64,000 nucleotides of DNA from Chromobacterium sp. IIBBL 290-4. Its GTDB lineage: Bacteria > Pseudomonadota > Gammaproteobacteria > Burkholderiales > Chromobacteriaceae. The position numbers and the translations under genes are program-made. The first letter of the stretch is position 1; every line of letters begins with the position of its first letter. The notes under the pieces are model-generated. The model ran no database searches. It was not told the origin of the DNA and was given only the letters and a program-made list of their open reading frames with translations. The stretch lies in NCBI RefSeq assembly GCF_024207115.1, contig NZ_CP100128.1:4092001-4156000 (forward strand), in the 5' to 3' direction. This document shows positions 3,825 to 10,454 of this stretch, one piece after another.

Positions 3825-3951
3825 GCCTTGCGCTTGGCGCGCGCGCTGTTAAAAAGAAAGAGTCGAACCGGCAGCCGATGCCCTGGGCATTTGGCCGCCG
3901 GCCCGGCTGCTGTTACACTCCCCAGCCTTTAGCCCCTTGCGCCAGCCAACC

Positions 3952-5334
3952 GTGAAATCAGACGCCTTCTCCACCCTGCCCCTGCCCGCCCCGCTGCTCG
4001 ATAATCTGGCCAGCCTGGGCTACAGCAAGATGACCGCCATCCAGGCCGCCAGCCTGCCCGCCGTTCTGGACGGCCGCGACCTGATCGCCCAGGCCAAGAC
4101 CGGCAGCGGCAAAACCGCCGCCTTCGGCCTCGGCATCCTGGCCAAGATCAATCCGCGCTGGTTCGGCGTGCAAGCGCTGGTGCTATGCCCGACCCGCGAA
4201 CTGGCCGATCAGGTGGCCCAGGAAATCCGCCGCCTGGCGCGCGCCATCGACAATATCAAGGTGGTGACGCTGACCGGCGGCACGCCCATGGGTCCGCAAA
4301 TCGGCTCGCTGGAGCACGGCGCCCACATCGTGGTCGGCACGCCGGGCCGGCTGCAAGACCACTTGTTCCGCGAAACGCTGAATCTGTCCGGCGTCAGCAC
4401 GCTGGTGCTGGACGAGGCGGACCGCATGGTGGACATGGGCTTCATCGAAGAAATCGTCGGCATCGTCCGCGCCTGCCCGCGCAATCGCCAGACCATGCTG
4501 TTCTCCGCCACCTATCCGGAAAACATCCGCAAGATCACCGCGTCCTTCCTGCGCCAGCCGCTGGAAGTGAAAGTGGAAGCGCTGCACGACAACAAACGCA
4601 TCGAACAGTGGTTCTACAAGGTCACGGCGGAAAAACGCCTGGAAGCGGTCACGCAGATCCTGCAAAGCATTCGTCCGACTTCGGCGCTGGCCTTCTGCAA
4701 TACCAAGGAGCGCTGCAAGGAGCTGGTGAAAGACCTGCAGGCGCGCGGTTTCTACGCGCTGGCGCTGTATGGCGACCTGGAACAGCGCGAGCGCGATCAA
4801 ATCCTGCTGCGCTTCGCCAACAAGAGCGCCACCGTGCTGGTGGCCACCGACGTGGCCGCGCGCGGCCTGGACATCAAGGATCTGGACCTGGTGGTCAATG
4901 TGGACGTCAGCCACGATCCGGAAGTGCACATCCACCGCATCGGCCGCACCGGCCGCGGCGAGGAAATCGGCCTGGCGCTGACCCTGGCGACCGAAAAAGA
5001 CGAGAAGAAGCTCGGCTTGATCGAGGCATACCAGCATGCCGACCTGCCCTGGGGCAAGCTGGAAGACTTGAAAGCCGCGCCGGGCGGCCCGCTGCTGCCG
5101 CCCATGATCACGCTGGAAATCAACGGCGGCAAGCGCGAGAAGCTGCGTCCCGGCGATCTGCTGGGCGCGCTGACCGGCGACGCCGGCTTTGCCGGCAGCC
5201 AGATCGGCAAAATCCATATCTTTGAGTTCAACTGCTTTGTCGCGCTGGAGCGCGCCATCGCCGAGGACGCGCTGGCTAAATTGTCCCCCTGCAAAATCAA
5301 GGGCAAACAGTTCAAGATGCGGCTGATCGCCTGA
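3952..5334 (+). CDS. dbpA: DEAD-box ATP-dependent RNA helicase DbpA
   Basis: A 460-residue helicase with Q-motif, AKTGSGKT (Walker A), PTRELA, TPGR, DEAD, SAT and the C-terminal HRIGRTGR motif. The last ~75 residues form the DbpA RNA-binding domain, which in E. coli recognises hairpin 92 of 23S rRNA. The protein assists assembly of the large ribosomal subunit. The start is taken as GTG at 3952, so the protein begins like E. coli DbpA (AFSTLPL after a few residues); a TTG at 3937 would add five residues. A hairpin terminator follows immediately. Length matches the family (about 457). Confidence 0.95.
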   Translation: MKSDAFSTLPLPAPLLDNLASLGYSKMTAIQAASLPAVLDGRDLIAQAKTGSGKTAAFGLGILAKINPRWFGVQALVLCPTRELADQVAQEIRRLARAIDNIKVVTLTGGTPMGPQIGSLEHGAHIVVGTPGRLQDHLFRETLNLSGVSTLVLDEADRMVDMGFIEEIVGIVRACPRNRQTMLFSATYPENIRKITASFLRQPLEVKVEALHDNKRIEQWFYKVTAEKRLEAVTQILQSIRPTSALAFCNTKERCKELVKDLQARGFYALALYGDLEQRERDQILLRFANKSATVLVATDVAARGLDIKDLDLVVNVDVSHDPEVHIHRIGRTGRGEEIGLALTLATEKDEKKLGLIEAYQHADLPWGKLEDLKAAPGGPLLPPMITLEINGGKREKLRPGDLLGALTGDAGFAGSQIGKIHIFEFNCFVALERAIAEDALAKLSPCKIKGKQFKMRLIA

Positions 5335-5345
5335 TCCATCCCATA

Positions 5346-5384
5346 GGGTTGCGCCGCTGGCCATATCGGCGCGACCCCGCTTTT
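5346..5384 (+). terminator. Intrinsic terminator of dbpA
   Basis: GGGTTGCGCCG, a 10-base loop and CGGCGCGACCC (one G.U pair), then CGCTTTT. It starts 11 bases after the dbpA stop. Confidence 0.75.
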
Positions 5385-5622
5385 CCCGCCCCTCCGCGCC
5401 TTTCGCTCCCATCCGTTAAAATACGGCATCCGTAAAAATACGCTTACGCCATTTCATTTCAAGCGCAACACTACAAACGCGGAGTTTCCGCATCATTCAT
5501 AAAGTTGACAATCCATTTACCATTGCCGATATCTATTAGGCATGGCTGCACCCATTTCATTCCGGTTAACAAGAACCCAGTAACGCGTTTCATGATTCCA
5601 CTCGACGGCAAAGGAGCATGCC

Positions 5623-6258
5623 ATGCTGGCCTATCCCAATGCGGAACAAATCAGAAAACAACTCGATGGCGCGGGGTCCAGTTATCTCCCGCATGATGCG
5701 TCCCTGTTTAGCGAGGAAGAATGGGCGGAAATAGAAAAACTGGTGTTCCATCCGGAGCTCCCTTGGGAAAAAGTCACAGTCGGCGATGCCGACGAGCCCA
5801 ATGACGTGCACGTCGGCCGCTTCATGACCGATGTGGAGAGGCCGCTCATCGTGAATCCTTGGGTCAGCCAAAAGCTGCTCGCCATCCTCGTCTCGCCCCA
5901 AGTCATGGCATTATTCGGTGAAATCCTGGGCGCTGAAACTTTATGCGTCCGCAGAGCCCAGGTGAATCGCATGGAGTCTGGCTCCTTCATCGGGTTTCAT
6001 CTGGACCGCGACAGCAATCCTGATTACGAAATCTCCATTGTGCTTCAACTCGGAAAGCAATTCAGCGGCGGCGAATTTGTCGTGCATGAAAACGAAGCCG
6101 TTCTCCATTCCTATGCGCCATCCTACCGTTCCATTCTGATTAGCCGCTGCGATCTTCCGCATGAGGTGAAAACCGTCACCGCGGGCGACCGGATCTCTTT
6201 GGTATTTTTTTTAAGCCGCCACAGCGGTCTGAATCGACGACTATATCCCGAGGCCTGA
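5623..6258 (+). CDS. 2-oxoglutarate/Fe(II)-dependent oxygenase (prolyl-hydroxylase-like)
   Basis: A 211-residue protein with the complete 2OG-oxygenase facial triad: H126-x-D128 (in FHLDRDSN) and H180 (in LPHEV). R190 (GDRISLVFFL) is the expected 2-oxoglutarate carboxylate ligand. The fold matches the P4Hc-like superfamily, which hydroxylates peptides, free amino acids or small natural products; the substrate cannot be read from sequence. By eye its base composition is clearly lower in GC than dbpA upstream, suggesting recent acquisition. It precedes a haem-oxygenase-like iron enzyme by 46 bases on the same strand, so the two very likely form one transcript. A GGAG sits upstream of the ATG. 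Confidence 0.85.
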   Translation: MLAYPNAEQIRKQLDGAGSSYLPHDASLFSEEEWAEIEKLVFHPELPWEKVTVGDADEPNDVHVGRFMTDVERPLIVNPWVSQKLLAILVSPQVMALFGEILGAETLCVRRAQVNRMESGSFIGFHLDRDSNPDYEISIVLQLGKQFSGGEFVVHENEAVLHSYAPSYRSILISRCDLPHEVKTVTAGDRISLVFFLSRHSGLNRRLYPEA

Positions 6259-6304
6259 AATCATCTCGCCATTCACGCACTGCATTTAGATAGGGAGCTT
6301 CCGC

Positions 6305-7096
6305 ATGGCCAACATCATCGAAGAAATAAACCTGTCCAAACAAACTGCGCTGAATCCGGCGTTGGCGGACTTGATCTTGCAGGCTGGCGAGCATTCGGCA
6401 TTCCAGCAATTGCGCAGTTTCGGCGAAAAGCTGAAGCGCCAAGCCCTGGATGAGCGCGAACTGAAAGTTTTCTTCGCCACGCTATGGGGATTTTTTGAGG
6501 CTTTCCCCACCGGCATTCTGGCATTGGCGCTGCGCGTCACCGACGACTGGTCCAGCCGCGATCCATGGGAAGCCACCGCCAAGGGCGCATACGTGTTGTT
6601 CGCCGATGTCGATGAGTTTGGCTTGCAAGAAGTAAACCGCAAGATCCATCGCAGCCATCATCAGATGTTCATGGACTTTACCGAACACCTGGGCGTCACC
6701 CGGGCCGACATGCAAAACCCCGCGTTGGCCATGCCTGAAGGCGCCGCGCTGGGCAAGCTGGTCGCCAGGCTATACCGCGAAGCGCCTCTGGCGCACGGCT
6801 TGGGCATGCACTTGGCGTCCGAGCTCATCGCATCGGTGGAATTCATGTACTTCCTGGCCGGCTTCGAAGCCCAAGCGGCGGCCTATGGCCTGAGCGAGCC
6901 CAACCATCCTGCGCTGACCTTCTTCCGCATTCATACCCTGGTGGAGCCGGAGCATCTTGCCAGGAATTGCGAATTGATCGAGCAGTATCTGGACCGTAAG
7001 CTGATCGACATTTCAGGCTTGCGCCAAGGGATAGATGAGTATTTCAATGGCTTCGAACAGGTATATCGCCAGTTCAACTCCCAATTGCTGCCATAG
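6305..7096 (+). CDS. Haem-oxygenase-like diiron oxidase (HDO superfamily, TenA/PqqC-like fold)
   Basis: A 263-residue all-helical protein of the iron-containing redox enzyme group. The most telling segment is H210-x3-E214-x2-H217 (HTLVEPEH), the spacing of the last metal-binding helix in HDO enzymes such as CADD (H-x3-D-x2-H). E104, H118/H119 and E173/E179 lie in helices where the other ligands would be expected. HDO enzymes catalyse N-oxygenation, decarboxylation/desaturation (UndA) or C-C cleavage, often in small biosynthetic operons. Here it follows a 2OG oxygenase gene by 46 bases and precedes a LysE exporter. The substrate is unknown. A GGGAGCTTCC just upstream supplies the Shine-Dalgarno sequence. 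Confidence 0.8.
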   Translation: MANIIEEINLSKQTALNPALADLILQAGEHSAFQQLRSFGEKLKRQALDERELKVFFATLWGFFEAFPTGILALALRVTDDWSSRDPWEATAKGAYVLFADVDEFGLQEVNRKIHRSHHQMFMDFTEHLGVTRADMQNPALAMPEGAALGKLVARLYREAPLAHGLGMHLASELIASVEFMYFLAGFEAQAAAYGLSEPNHPALTFFRIHTLVEPEHLARNCELIEQYLDRKLIDISGLRQGIDEYFNGFEQVYRQFNSQLLP

Positions 7097-7283
7097 ATAA
7101 TGGCAGATGGGCGAATCAAGGCCGTCGCAGGCTGAGAGGCAAAGGGCCGGGGCGATTCTATTGGACATGGTCTTGCAGCGTTTTTTCTAATTGTCCCCGA
7201 CAGCAATCTCCACATAGGGGCTGCTGCAAGTTTGGTCAATCATCAGGGGCGATCTGGAACGCCCCGCTCGCAAGGAGGATGGC

Positions 7284-7910
7284 ATGGCGTTTTTCCTCTC
7301 GGTGGCCAGTATTATCGCAGCGCTGGCGGCCGGCGTCGTCAGCCCCGGCCCCAGCTTCATTCTGGTGGCGCAAACCTCGCTGTCCAGCAGCCGCAAAAAC
7401 GGCATCGCCGCCGCCATCGGCATGGGCCTGGGCGCCCTCACCTTCGCCACGCTGGTGCTGATAGGGCTGCACGCGCTATTGATCAATCTGCCTGCCATCT
7501 ACATCGTATTGAAATGCCTGGGAGGCGGGTATCTGCTTTATCTGGCGGTGCGTATCTGGCGCGGCGCCGCGGCGCCCTTGCGTTTAGACGCGCCCGGCGT
7601 GATTGGCGCCGGCCGGGCACGCCAATCCTTTTGGCTGGCGCTGGCCACCATGTTGAGCAATCCCAAGGCCATGGTGCAATACGGCGCGATTTTCGCCGCG
7701 CTGTTGCCCAAGGACCTGACCGGCGCTCAAGGCGCGGCCATCGCCCTGTCGATTTTCGCCCTGGAGGCCGGCTGGTACACGCTGGTCGCCCTGGTCCTGT
7801 CGTCGCCGCAGCCTAGGGCCGCCTATTTGCGCTACAAAACCGCCATGGACCGGACGGCGGCCTTCGTCATGCTGCTGCTGGGCATCAAGCTGCTTGCCGC
7901 GGCCCTTTGA
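7284..7910 (+). CDS. LysE/RhtB-family amino-acid exporter
   Basis: A 208-residue inner-membrane protein with about six hydrophobic segments and the family's N-terminal SPGPSFILV signature, followed by the conserved GxxxAxGxxxGxL-type helix. LysE/RhtB proteins export amino acids or related small molecules in exchange for protons. AAGGAGG sits 6-12 bases before the ATG. It is 187 bases downstream of the HDO gene on the same strand. It may export the product of the two iron enzymes or be an independent gene; the long gap leaves this open. Confidence 0.88.
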   Translation: MAFFLSVASIIAALAAGVVSPGPSFILVAQTSLSSSRKNGIAAAIGMGLGALTFATLVLIGLHALLINLPAIYIVLKCLGGGYLLYLAVRIWRGAAAPLRLDAPGVIGAGRARQSFWLALATMLSNPKAMVQYGAIFAALLPKDLTGAQGAAIALSIFALEAGWYTLVALVLSSPQPRAAYLRYKTAMDRTAAFVMLLLGIKLLAAAL

Positions 7911-7960
7911 GGCCTGTGGCGATGGGCGCGGCACAGGCATGGCCGCGCCCGAACGCATGA

Positions 7961-8794
7961 TCAGTATGGCCTATCGCCCAATATCGTCGCCCTATGCATC
8001 ACCCGCCTGGCCGGCCGGTAGTCGTCAACCGCGTAGTGGAGGGTGCAGCGGTTGTCCCAGAAGGCGACATCGCCCGGCTGCCAACGCCAGCGGATGGCAA
8101 ACTCCGGCCGTGACTGATGGGCGAACAGGAATTGCAGCAAGGCCTGGCCCTCGCCGTCCGGCAACTCATTGATCGCCGTCGTGAAGCCCTCGCTGACGAA
8201 CAAGGTCTTGCGGCCGCTTTCGGGGTGAATGCGCACTACAGGGTGGCTGACCGGCGGATGCTTGGCTCGCGTCTCCTCCAGCTTTTTCCTATCCTCAGGA
8301 CTCGCCCCATAGCGCGACGCAGGAAAGGACTTGCTGAAATCATGCGTCGCCGACAAGCCGTTCAGCCGTTCTTTCAACGAGGAGGACAAGGCTTCGTAAG
8401 CGGCGATGCCGCTCGCCCACAGCGTGTCTCCTCCTACCTCGGGCAGTTGCCGGGCAGCCAGGATAGCCCCCATGGGCGGAGACTCGATAAAAGTGACATC
8501 GGTATGCCACAAGGCATTGTCTTTCAGGTCCACCCTATCGGTATCCAGCACCATGATCTCGCGCGCGTCGGCATGCGCCGGATAGATGGGGTGGATGTGC
8601 AAATCGCCGAAGCGCACCGCGAAATTCCGCTGCTGCAAAGGCGTGATGTCCTGCTCCCGGAAAAACAGCACCTGATGGCGCAGCAAGGCCTGGCGCAACG
8701 CGCTCAGCTGCGCATCGCTCAAGGATAGCGACAGATCGATCCCCTCTACCACCGCGCCCAAGGCCGGCGTCAATCGCGTCAACTGCAAACTCAT
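7961..8794 (-). CDS. tauD: Taurine dioxygenase TauD
   Basis: A 277-residue 2OG/Fe(II) dioxygenase of the TauD/TfdA family. The LWHTDVTF segment gives the H-x-D iron ligands, and the distal His and 2OG-binding Arg lie in the C-terminal [10 protein letters not shown]...RRVMHRAT region. The enzyme oxidises taurine to an unstable product that releases sulfite and aminoacetaldehyde. Start is ATG 8794, preceded by GGGGAAG; the upstream extension to 8839 overlaps tauC and lacks a ribosome site. It is the last gene of tauABCD. Length agrees with E. coli TauD (283). Confidence 0.92.
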
Positions 8795-8817
8795 ATTCTT
8801 CCCCGTATCGTCATTAT

Positions 8818-9666
8818 TTAGTCTTGATGTCCATGCCACGGCGTGGCCCAGCCTTGCAGAATGCGCAGCCCCAACTCCATGGCGAAGGCGATGGCGGCAA
8901 TCGCCAAGATGCCCAGCAGCACCACATCGGTCACCAGGAACTGCGCGGCGGACTGCACCATGAAGCCCAGGCCGCGCGTGGCGGCTACCAGCTCAGCCGC
9001 CACCAAGGTGGACCAACCCGCGCCCAGGCCTATGCGTATGCCGGTCAGAATCTGCGGCAGCGCCTCCGGCAGGATCACCAGCCATAGCAGTTGCGCGCGG
9101 CTGGCGCCCAGGCTTTGCGCGGCGCGCAGACGATTGCGGCTGGTCTGGGCCACGCCTTGCCGCGTCGCGATCGCCACCGGCGCCAGCATGGCCAGGAAGA
9201 TCAGCAGCACCTTGGATAGCTCGCCTATGCCGAACCAGATCACGATCAACGGCAGATAGGCTAGCGGCGGCACCGGCCGATAAGCTTCCAACAGCGGGTC
9301 AAGCAAGCCCCGTGCCAAGGCATTCCGCCCCATCAACAGGCCCAGCGGAACGCCCAGCGCCACCGCGCCCAGCAAAGCCAGCGCGATGCGCTGCAGGCTG
9401 GCCGCCAGATGCTGCCACAGCGTGGCATCCATAAAACCTTGATCCGCCACGATAAACAGTTTGCGAATCACCGCCTCCGGCCCCGGCAAAAATAAAGCTG
9501 GAATCCAGCCGCTGCGCGCCAGCGCCCACCATGCGGTCAACAAAAACAATACACTGACCGCGCTCAAGCCCCAGCCTGGTGCCAGAATGCGCCGCCCCCT
9601 CCTGGACTCCGCCCGTGACGCCATGGCCAACAACTCTTGCTCTGCGGCGGTCTCGATGCCATTCAT
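8818..9666 (-). CDS. tauC: Taurine ABC transporter permease TauC
   Basis: A 282-residue inner-membrane permease with about six transmembrane helices and the BPD-transp-1 coupling loop (the [23 protein letters not shown] region) that contacts the ATPase. It imports taurine or other sulfonates with TauA and TauB. Its ATG overlaps the end of tauB by four bases, implying translational coupling, and it ends 23 bases before tauD. Confidence 0.92.
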
Positions 9667-10454
9667 GCCCAGGCCTCCTCATCTGATCGCCGCCCGGCCA
9701 GAATGGCCGCCAGCAGAGACTCTCTTTGCGCGATGAACTCGGGGCTGGATTTGATCGAGCGCGCGCTCTCTCCCGCCCGGTAGCGTTGGCTGAAGCCTGG
9801 CCTCAACCGTTCGACGATGCGTCCCGGCCCCGGCGACATCAGCACCAGCCGCGTCGCCAGAAACAAGGCTTCCTCGATATCGTGGGTAATCAGGAAAACG
9901 CTGCGTTCGGCCTCCGCCCACACGTGCAGCAGCAACTCTTGCATTTGCTCGCGCGTGAAGGCGTCCAGCGCGCCGAAAGGCTCATCCATCAACAAAACCC
10001 GCGCGCTCCCCGCCAACGCGCGGGCAATGCCCACCCGCTGCTTTTGTCCGCCGGACAGCTGCCAGGGATATTTCCCCCCGGCCCCGGCCAAGCCGACCTG
10101 GCGTAGGCGCTCATCCGCCAAAGCCAGCCGCCGCTGCCTGGCCACCCCTTGCAGACGCAAGCCGAACGCCACGTTGTTTCTGGCATCCAGCCACGGCAGC
10201 AAGGCATGCTGCTGAAACACCACGGCGCGCTCCGCGTCCGGCCCGCGGACTGGCGACGTCCCGAATCTCAGCTGGCCGCCGCTCGGCTCGATGAAGCCGG
10301 CGAACAAATTGAGCAGAGAGGTTTTGCCGCAACCGGACGGGCCGAGCGCCACCACCAACTCGCCCGCCTCGATATCCAGCGACACATCCGACAAGGCGGC
10401 CTGGTGCTCGCCGGGGTATTGCAGCGACACGCGCCGGGCAGACAGGGTAGTCAT
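9663..10454 (-). CDS. tauB: Taurine ABC transporter ATP-binding protein TauB
   Basis: A 263-residue ABC ATPase with Walker A GPSGCGKTS, signature LSGGQKQRVGIARAL, Walker B LLMDEPFGALD and switch His (FLITHD). It energises taurine import with TauC and TauA. It lies three bases downstream of tauA and overlaps tauC, a standard tight operon. SsuB of the alkanesulfonate system is a close alternative, but the tauA and tauD neighbours favour taurine. Confidence 0.92.
   Translation of the reverse strand: MTTLSARRVSLQYPGEHQAALSDVSLDIEAGELVVALGPSGCGKTSLLNLFAGFIEPSGGQLRFGTSPVRGPDAERAVVFQQHALLPWLDARNNVAFGLRLQGVARQRRLALADERLRQVGLAGAGGKYPWQLSGGQKQRVGIARALAGSARVLLMDEPFGALDAFTREQMQELLLHVWAEAERSVFLITHDIEEALFLATRLVLMSPGPGRIVERLRPGFSQRYRAGESARSIKSSPEFIAQRESLLAAILAGRRSDEEAWA

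Follow-up and report, generated by a model that had tools for sequence, protein, structure and literature searches.

Why should two dissimilar iron oxygenases stand side by side, in front of an exporter gene, in a bacterial chromosome? The question is raised by positions 5623-7910 of a 64,000-nucleotide stretch of Chromobacterium sp. IIBBL 290-4 (contig NZ_CP100128.1, positions 4,092,001 to 4,156,000), called here the window, in which an original prediction had recognised a 2-oxoglutarate (2OG)/Fe(II) oxygenase, then, 46 bases after its stop codon, a haem-oxygenase-like diiron oxygenase (HDO), and then a LysE-type exporter. Open reading frames (ORFs) and Pfam searches confirmed three genes in this order, all on the forward strand. 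The cassette is real, rare and horizontally acquired; gene order, conserved motifs and insertion are established. The explanation that we favour, with slightly better than even confidence, is that it forms a self-contained unit making and exporting an oxidised, probably non-proteinogenic amino acid. The three genes are as follows:

5623-6258, + strand: 2OG/Fe(II) oxygenase, 211 aa, prolyl-hydroxylase-like fold, with H126-x-D128, H180 and R190 (PF13640; 6n1f match; fold model)
6305-7096, + strand: HDO, 263 aa, with E104, H118, E173, H210, E214 and H217 (3 His/3 carboxylate motif)
7284-7910, + strand: LysE/RhtB-type exporter, 208 aa (PF01810; TIGR00949 below cut-off)

By eye, a purine stretch resembling a ribosome-binding site precedes every one of the three starts, and a promoter/terminator scan returned 2 and 4 hits, as against 1.2 ± 1.0 and 2.4 ± 1.4 in shuffles. 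The GC content is 54.1% in the 2OG gene, 56.8% in the HDO gene and 65.1% in the LysE gene, compared to 64.3% in the preceding dbpA gene and 62.0% in the whole window. The low GC that had been noticed for the first gene, and taken as a sign of transfer, was therefore found in the second as well but not in the third: the two oxygenase genes look foreign by composition, the exporter gene does not.

The transfer itself is borne out by the insertion site, which is defined by the following features:

3937-5334, + strand: left flank, dbpA-type RNA helicase, outside the cassette (named by eye from its translation; flank DNA conserved)
7961-8839, - strand: right flank, TauD-like dioxygenase adjoining a sulphonate-type ATP-binding cassette transporter, outside the cassette (ORFs, named by eye)
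5335-7960, no strand: inserted segment of about 2.6 kb, from the dbpA stop to the tauD stop (flank spacing in relatives; match breaks)

All 19 genomes of the genus match the left-flank DNA (4700-5420), and 14 of the 19 match the right-flank DNA (7930-9700), the match in one of these spanning just 44 bases. Seven of the 18 relatives have the two flank matches near each other; the junctions were read in those seven, the other 11 being uninformative on the site. In five of them (L054-L058) the flanking BLAST matches lie 63-74 bases apart, with dbpA and tauD almost touching, and therefore the 2.6 kb between the two genes is an insertion holding the three genes, a loss from all seven relatives being less likely. 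The matches of the window to its relatives break at about 5337-5342 and 7961-7968; a search for direct repeats at the two ends of the insertion found no identical words, 8-20 bases long, in 5321-5420 and 7881-7990. The dbpA-tauD junction is an insertion-prone site. A terminator-like hairpin was seen by eye in the dbpA-tauD spacer of the five near-empty relatives. In the other two (L059, L060), about 1.7 kb of other DNA occupies the site (about 1670-3350 in L060); it includes a short piece resembling the end of dbpA and, on the minus strand, a long ORF (524 aa in L060).

The distribution of the genes is restricted. The 2OG and HDO genes were each found in their own genome only among the 19 of the genus, being absent from the other 18 searched, and the same was true of the LysE gene at E 1e-30 (1/19). 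The HDO was detected in 1 of 398 genomes of the phylum (its own), in 2 of 300 of the order (its own, and a weak partial match with E 8e-5), in one plasmid record, and at three loci (L002, L003 and L004) from a collection of 84,980 species in a search limited to two peptide patterns. The 2OG enzyme was found in 2 of 369 genomes of the class (its own and G588), in 1 of 149 of the family of G588 (G588 itself) and in four plasmid records. As to a viral origin, a pattern-limited search of viral_contigs gave no confirmed relative of either enzyme, and phages, searched for the 2OG protein and not for the HDO, gave no match.

The 2OG protein scores 38.6 bits against PF13640 (cut-off 27) and matches 6n1f, an uncharacterised 2OG-Fe(II) oxygenase of Burkholderia pseudomallei, at E 6.6e-44; its model (pLDDT 94.5) has 6n1f as top fold match, followed by prolyl hydroxylases, and the first 50 fold rows consist of these and a few others. 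The 6n1f protein belongs to the same subfamily (identity 40-42%, template modelling score 0.85-0.88), and the title of its entry names no function. When 28 of the 114 listed sequences were aligned, own included, all 28 had H126, D128 and R190, and 27 had H180, so that the HxD...H triad and the Arg predicted from the sequence are present in a PF13640 fold.

The HDO has the haem-oxygenase-like helical fold and scores marginally above the PF14518 cut-off (29.6 against 28.9 bits). In an alignment of all 34 listed sequences, own included, H210, E214 and H217, already named in the original prediction, are invariant, as are E104 and H118, whereas E173 is kept in 33 (one Q); these last three residues are the half of the metal set that had not been named. 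H118, and not its invariant neighbour H119, aligns with the His of BesC and of a 4-aminobenzoate synthase, and the E104-H118 spacing is 14 residues, compared to 7 in BesC. Further invariant residues are D80, H119, H169 and E179, which are retained, together with the ligands, in the HDO proteins of a Vibrio plasmid and of three other loci (L002, L003, L004). The E-H-X-H-D/E-H metal motif, reported in about 85% of the HDO groups analysed in one study (PMC11363339), is present here. A complete metal site is thus predicted from residue conservation, with E104 and H118 lying in a low-confidence part of the model.

With which solved enzymes does this HDO share most? The structural Z of the model was highest for HrmI (22.6), tied with BesC (22.1), and in the profile search BesC was the best solved sequence relative (E 7.8e-15), HrmI having no row up to E 10. 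The NCBIfam equivalog for BesC (4-chloro-allylglycine synthase) gave 17.8 bits against a cut-off of 500, and the CADD family TIGR04305 gave 20.8 bits against 200. The HDO is close to BesC, HrmI and CADD in fold, yet it lies outside the BesC and CADD family cut-offs. The nearest solved folds include BesC and HrmI, whose substrates are lysine or chlorolysine, so that amino-acid chemistry, as originally proposed, is supported as the likeliest class for the two oxygenases.

The exporter scores 110.7 bits against PF01810 (cut-off 25.6) and 117.4 bits against TIGR00949 (homoserine/threonine exporter), under the curated cut-off of 183.95, and for this reason no substrate was given to it. Its own genome carries a LysE paralogue with 46% identity.

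Do the three genes travel together? The protein search reports the longest contig per match, and co-location was inferred from equal sizes of contigs. The longest contigs of 34 HDO matches, 114 2OG matches and the 120 listed of 2,652 LysE matches were compared, own genome apart. Among the matches listed, HDO and 2OG had one size in common (3,966 bases), HDO and LysE two (3,966 and 22,097), and 2OG and LysE three (3,966, 1,065 and 937). The best non-own HDO (P0002, 69%), the best 2OG (P0036, 64%) and the third LysE (P0152, 62%) are each on a 3,966-base metagenome contig from the same source, and the second HDO (P0003, 64%) and the fifth LysE (P0154, 57%) are each on a metagenome contig of 22,097 bases. 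It appears, then, that the trio lies together on one 3,966-base contig, and HDO and LysE on one of 22,097 bases; for the trio, a chance equality is unlikely because of the ranks of the matches and their similar divergence. The remaining 31 HDO matches have no contig size in common with the 2OG matches.

A distant HDO (38.7%) on the Vibrio plasmid pVDT1 (L008) is divergent from a LysE gene, with no 2OG match within the 19.6 kb examined. Within 6152-9720 the HDO has as neighbours two genes of the LysE family, one YcaO gene and one encoding a hypothetical protein of 67 aa; together they may form a separate HDO pathway. At L002 neither a 2OG match nor, by eye among the listed ORFs, an exporter was noticed. 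At L003:8010-11932 the genes after the HDO encode an EamA exporter, a protein of the proline-racemase family and one resembling a methyltransferase, with no 2OG match. At L004:2009-4709 a distant HDO stands beside a CmlA-like diiron beta-hydroxylase and a frame resembling a non-ribosomal peptide synthetase (NRPS; by eye), again with no 2OG match in 5.7 kb; this is another pair of dissimilar iron oxygenases. Five relatives of the 2OG enzyme were found: one (51.5%) on a Massilia forsythiae plasmid (L009), inside an NRPS region that also has several hypothetical proteins; one (34%) in Rhizobium, with a PGM1-related peptide ligase nearby; one (30%) in Piscirickettsia, next to an aminotransferase; one (35%) on a Streptomyces plasmid that lacks annotation; and one (43%) in G588, whose neighbour is a 455-aa protein that matches no Pfam family. 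Two genes were considered as a possible hidden HDO, the hypothetical one that follows the 2OG gene in Massilia and a 287-aa one near that of Piscirickettsia; neither showed similarity.

Thus, the adjacency of the two enzymes, on which the original prediction had staked its case, was recovered once, by inference from contig size, but not at the four distant HDO loci or the five 2OG loci over the stretches examined, and the 2OG-HDO pairing is not general. By contrast, an exporter of LysE or EamA type stands beside the HDO in the window, in Vibrio and in L003, and apparently on the two metagenome contigs; of exporter and 2OG enzyme, the former seems the more closely tied to the HDO. This leads to the first alternative, that HDO and exporter form the true unit, to which the 2OG enzyme is loosely joined as an accessory that tailors either what the HDO makes or some unrelated peptide or amino acid. 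The HDO-LysE pairs without a detected 2OG gene (the 22,097-base contig and pVDT1) and the 2OG relatives in settings without this HDO argue for it, but the apparent recurrence of all three genes, similarly diverged (HDO/2OG/LysE 69/64/62%), on the 3,966-base contig, and the mere 46 bases between the first two genes in the window, make it rather doubtful.

Returning to the self-contained three-gene cassette, its substrate class, reaction type, product export and order of steps are suggested by analogy with relatives. The 2OG enzyme would hydroxylate a free amino acid at a C-H bond, lysine or a lysine-like compound being the first candidate. The HDO would bind the amino acid at its diiron site, form a peroxo-diferric species and abstract hydrogen, with desaturation or C-C scission, as in BesC, as possible outcomes; either enzyme could act first. 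In other HDOs, a peroxo-diferric species triggered by substrate is reported to absorb at about 550-629 nm (PMC12614342). The LysE/RhtB-type carrier would then export the product, also limiting self-poisoning. In a bolder version, which we put forward tentatively as a possibility short of an even chance, the unit would be a minimal mobile cassette, in which an uncharacterised HDO subfamily, marked by the invariant D80, H119, H169 and E179 and by the long loop between the first two ligands, would run a reaction new for HDOs on an amino acid hydroxylated by the 2OG enzyme, and a dedicated LysE-type carrier would release an antimetabolite: a full natural-product pathway in three genes, without ligase, pyridoxal phosphate (PLP) enzyme or NRPS.

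Several observations weigh against the cassette reading. The insert holds no ligase, PLP enzyme or regulator, and the exporter gene has a host-like GC (65.1%). E104 and H118 sit in blocks of the HDO model with mean pLDDT of 53 and 69. The first Foldseek row for the HDO is CADD, an enzyme outside amino-acid pathways, the CADD model scores it slightly above the BesC model (both far below cut-off), and the solved HDOs listed are all at most 20% identical to it. The metagenome co-occurrence comes from equal contig sizes: those of 1,065 and 937 bases are chance equalities, occurring near 1 kb, because such contigs have no room for both genes, and P0211 (52%), a further LysE match, is also on a 3,966-base contig. 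Finally, over the stretches examined, the 2OG enzyme is missing from the four distant HDO loci and the HDO from the five 2OG loci.

A second alternative is nitration of lysine followed by cyclisation: the HDO would N-oxygenate the amine of the side chain, and the nitro amino acid so formed would be modified by the 2OG enzyme, in the manner of HrmI and BelK, which convert lysine to 6-nitronorleucine, and of HrmJ and BelL, which cyclise the latter (PMC10764440). The published nitration pair is indeed an HDO with a 2OG enzyme, and HrmI has the top structural Z. We nevertheless consider this unlikely: HrmI is missing from the profile search in which BesC scored well, and ScBelL is described as isoleucine-dioxygenase-like (PMC10764440), whereas our 2OG protein is prolyl-hydroxylase-like, as judged from fold rows. 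Tailoring of a short peptide by both oxygenases, as for ribosomally synthesised and post-translationally modified peptides, with the exporter removing an amino-acid fragment, would fit the YcaO gene near the distant Vibrio HDO and the HDO MboA acting on a tripeptide (PMC13185094), but it is very improbable, given that the small ORFs in the cassette gaps include no convincing precursor-like peptide by eye and the insert no peptide ligase or protease. Equally improbable is a CADD-like self-sacrificing 4-aminobenzoate synthase lying by chance beside the other two genes, because of the low TIGR04305 score of the HDO and because a folate gene would not be expected to keep company with genes for an exporter and a 2OG enzyme.

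Only about a dozen HDOs have been functionally validated, and new oxidative amino-acid chemistry keeps emerging from them (PMC13108848). Being so small, a unit of three genes, exporter included, could be transferred whole to a laboratory host, and the exporter should place the product in the medium, so that substrate and product could be sought directly. Moreover, the HDO clade found beside a LysE-type exporter could serve as bait for further units of this kind.

Pairs of an HDO and a 2OG enzyme that use lysine or compounds derived from it are in the literature, namely BesC/BesD, HrmI/HrmJ and BelK/BelL, and the suggestion that such a pair was undescribed did not survive; for the combination of HDO, 2OG enzyme and LysE, a literature search, with most subscription journals and supplements outside it, found no earlier description. 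As a rule, 2OG halogenases lack the metal-binding Asp ligand, and the 2OG enzyme of the cassette, in which D128 is kept in 28 of 28 sequences, is therefore not taken for a halogenase, as BesD is; neither does the insert hold a gene like that of the PLP enzyme BesB, having a LysE-type exporter instead. The likeness to BesC/BesD, of beta-ethynylserine formation in Streptomyces, is that of an HDO and a 2OG enzyme working in sequence on free lysine (PMC10187165), BesD chlorinating lysine and BesC fragmenting the product (PMC10187165; PMC13108848). Apart from the dissimilar 2OG partner, the hormaomycin (HrmI/HrmJ) and belactosin (BelK/BelL) pathways use NRPSs or ATP-grasp ligases (PMC10764440), none of which is in this insert. 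CADD consumes its own tyrosine (PMC13108848), and our HDO is far below the cut-off of that family. MboA (mangotoxin) and PolF (polyoxin) are likewise HDOs of the 3 His/3 carboxylate type, with side chains of peptides or amino acids as their targets, but MboA has a tripeptide substrate and the partner MboB (PMC13185094), with 'LysE' absent from the main text of the MboA paper, and PolF acts on isoleucine. The cassette is not the BesC/BesD system and is not established as one of HrmI/HrmJ type; its mode of action may nevertheless resemble that of either.
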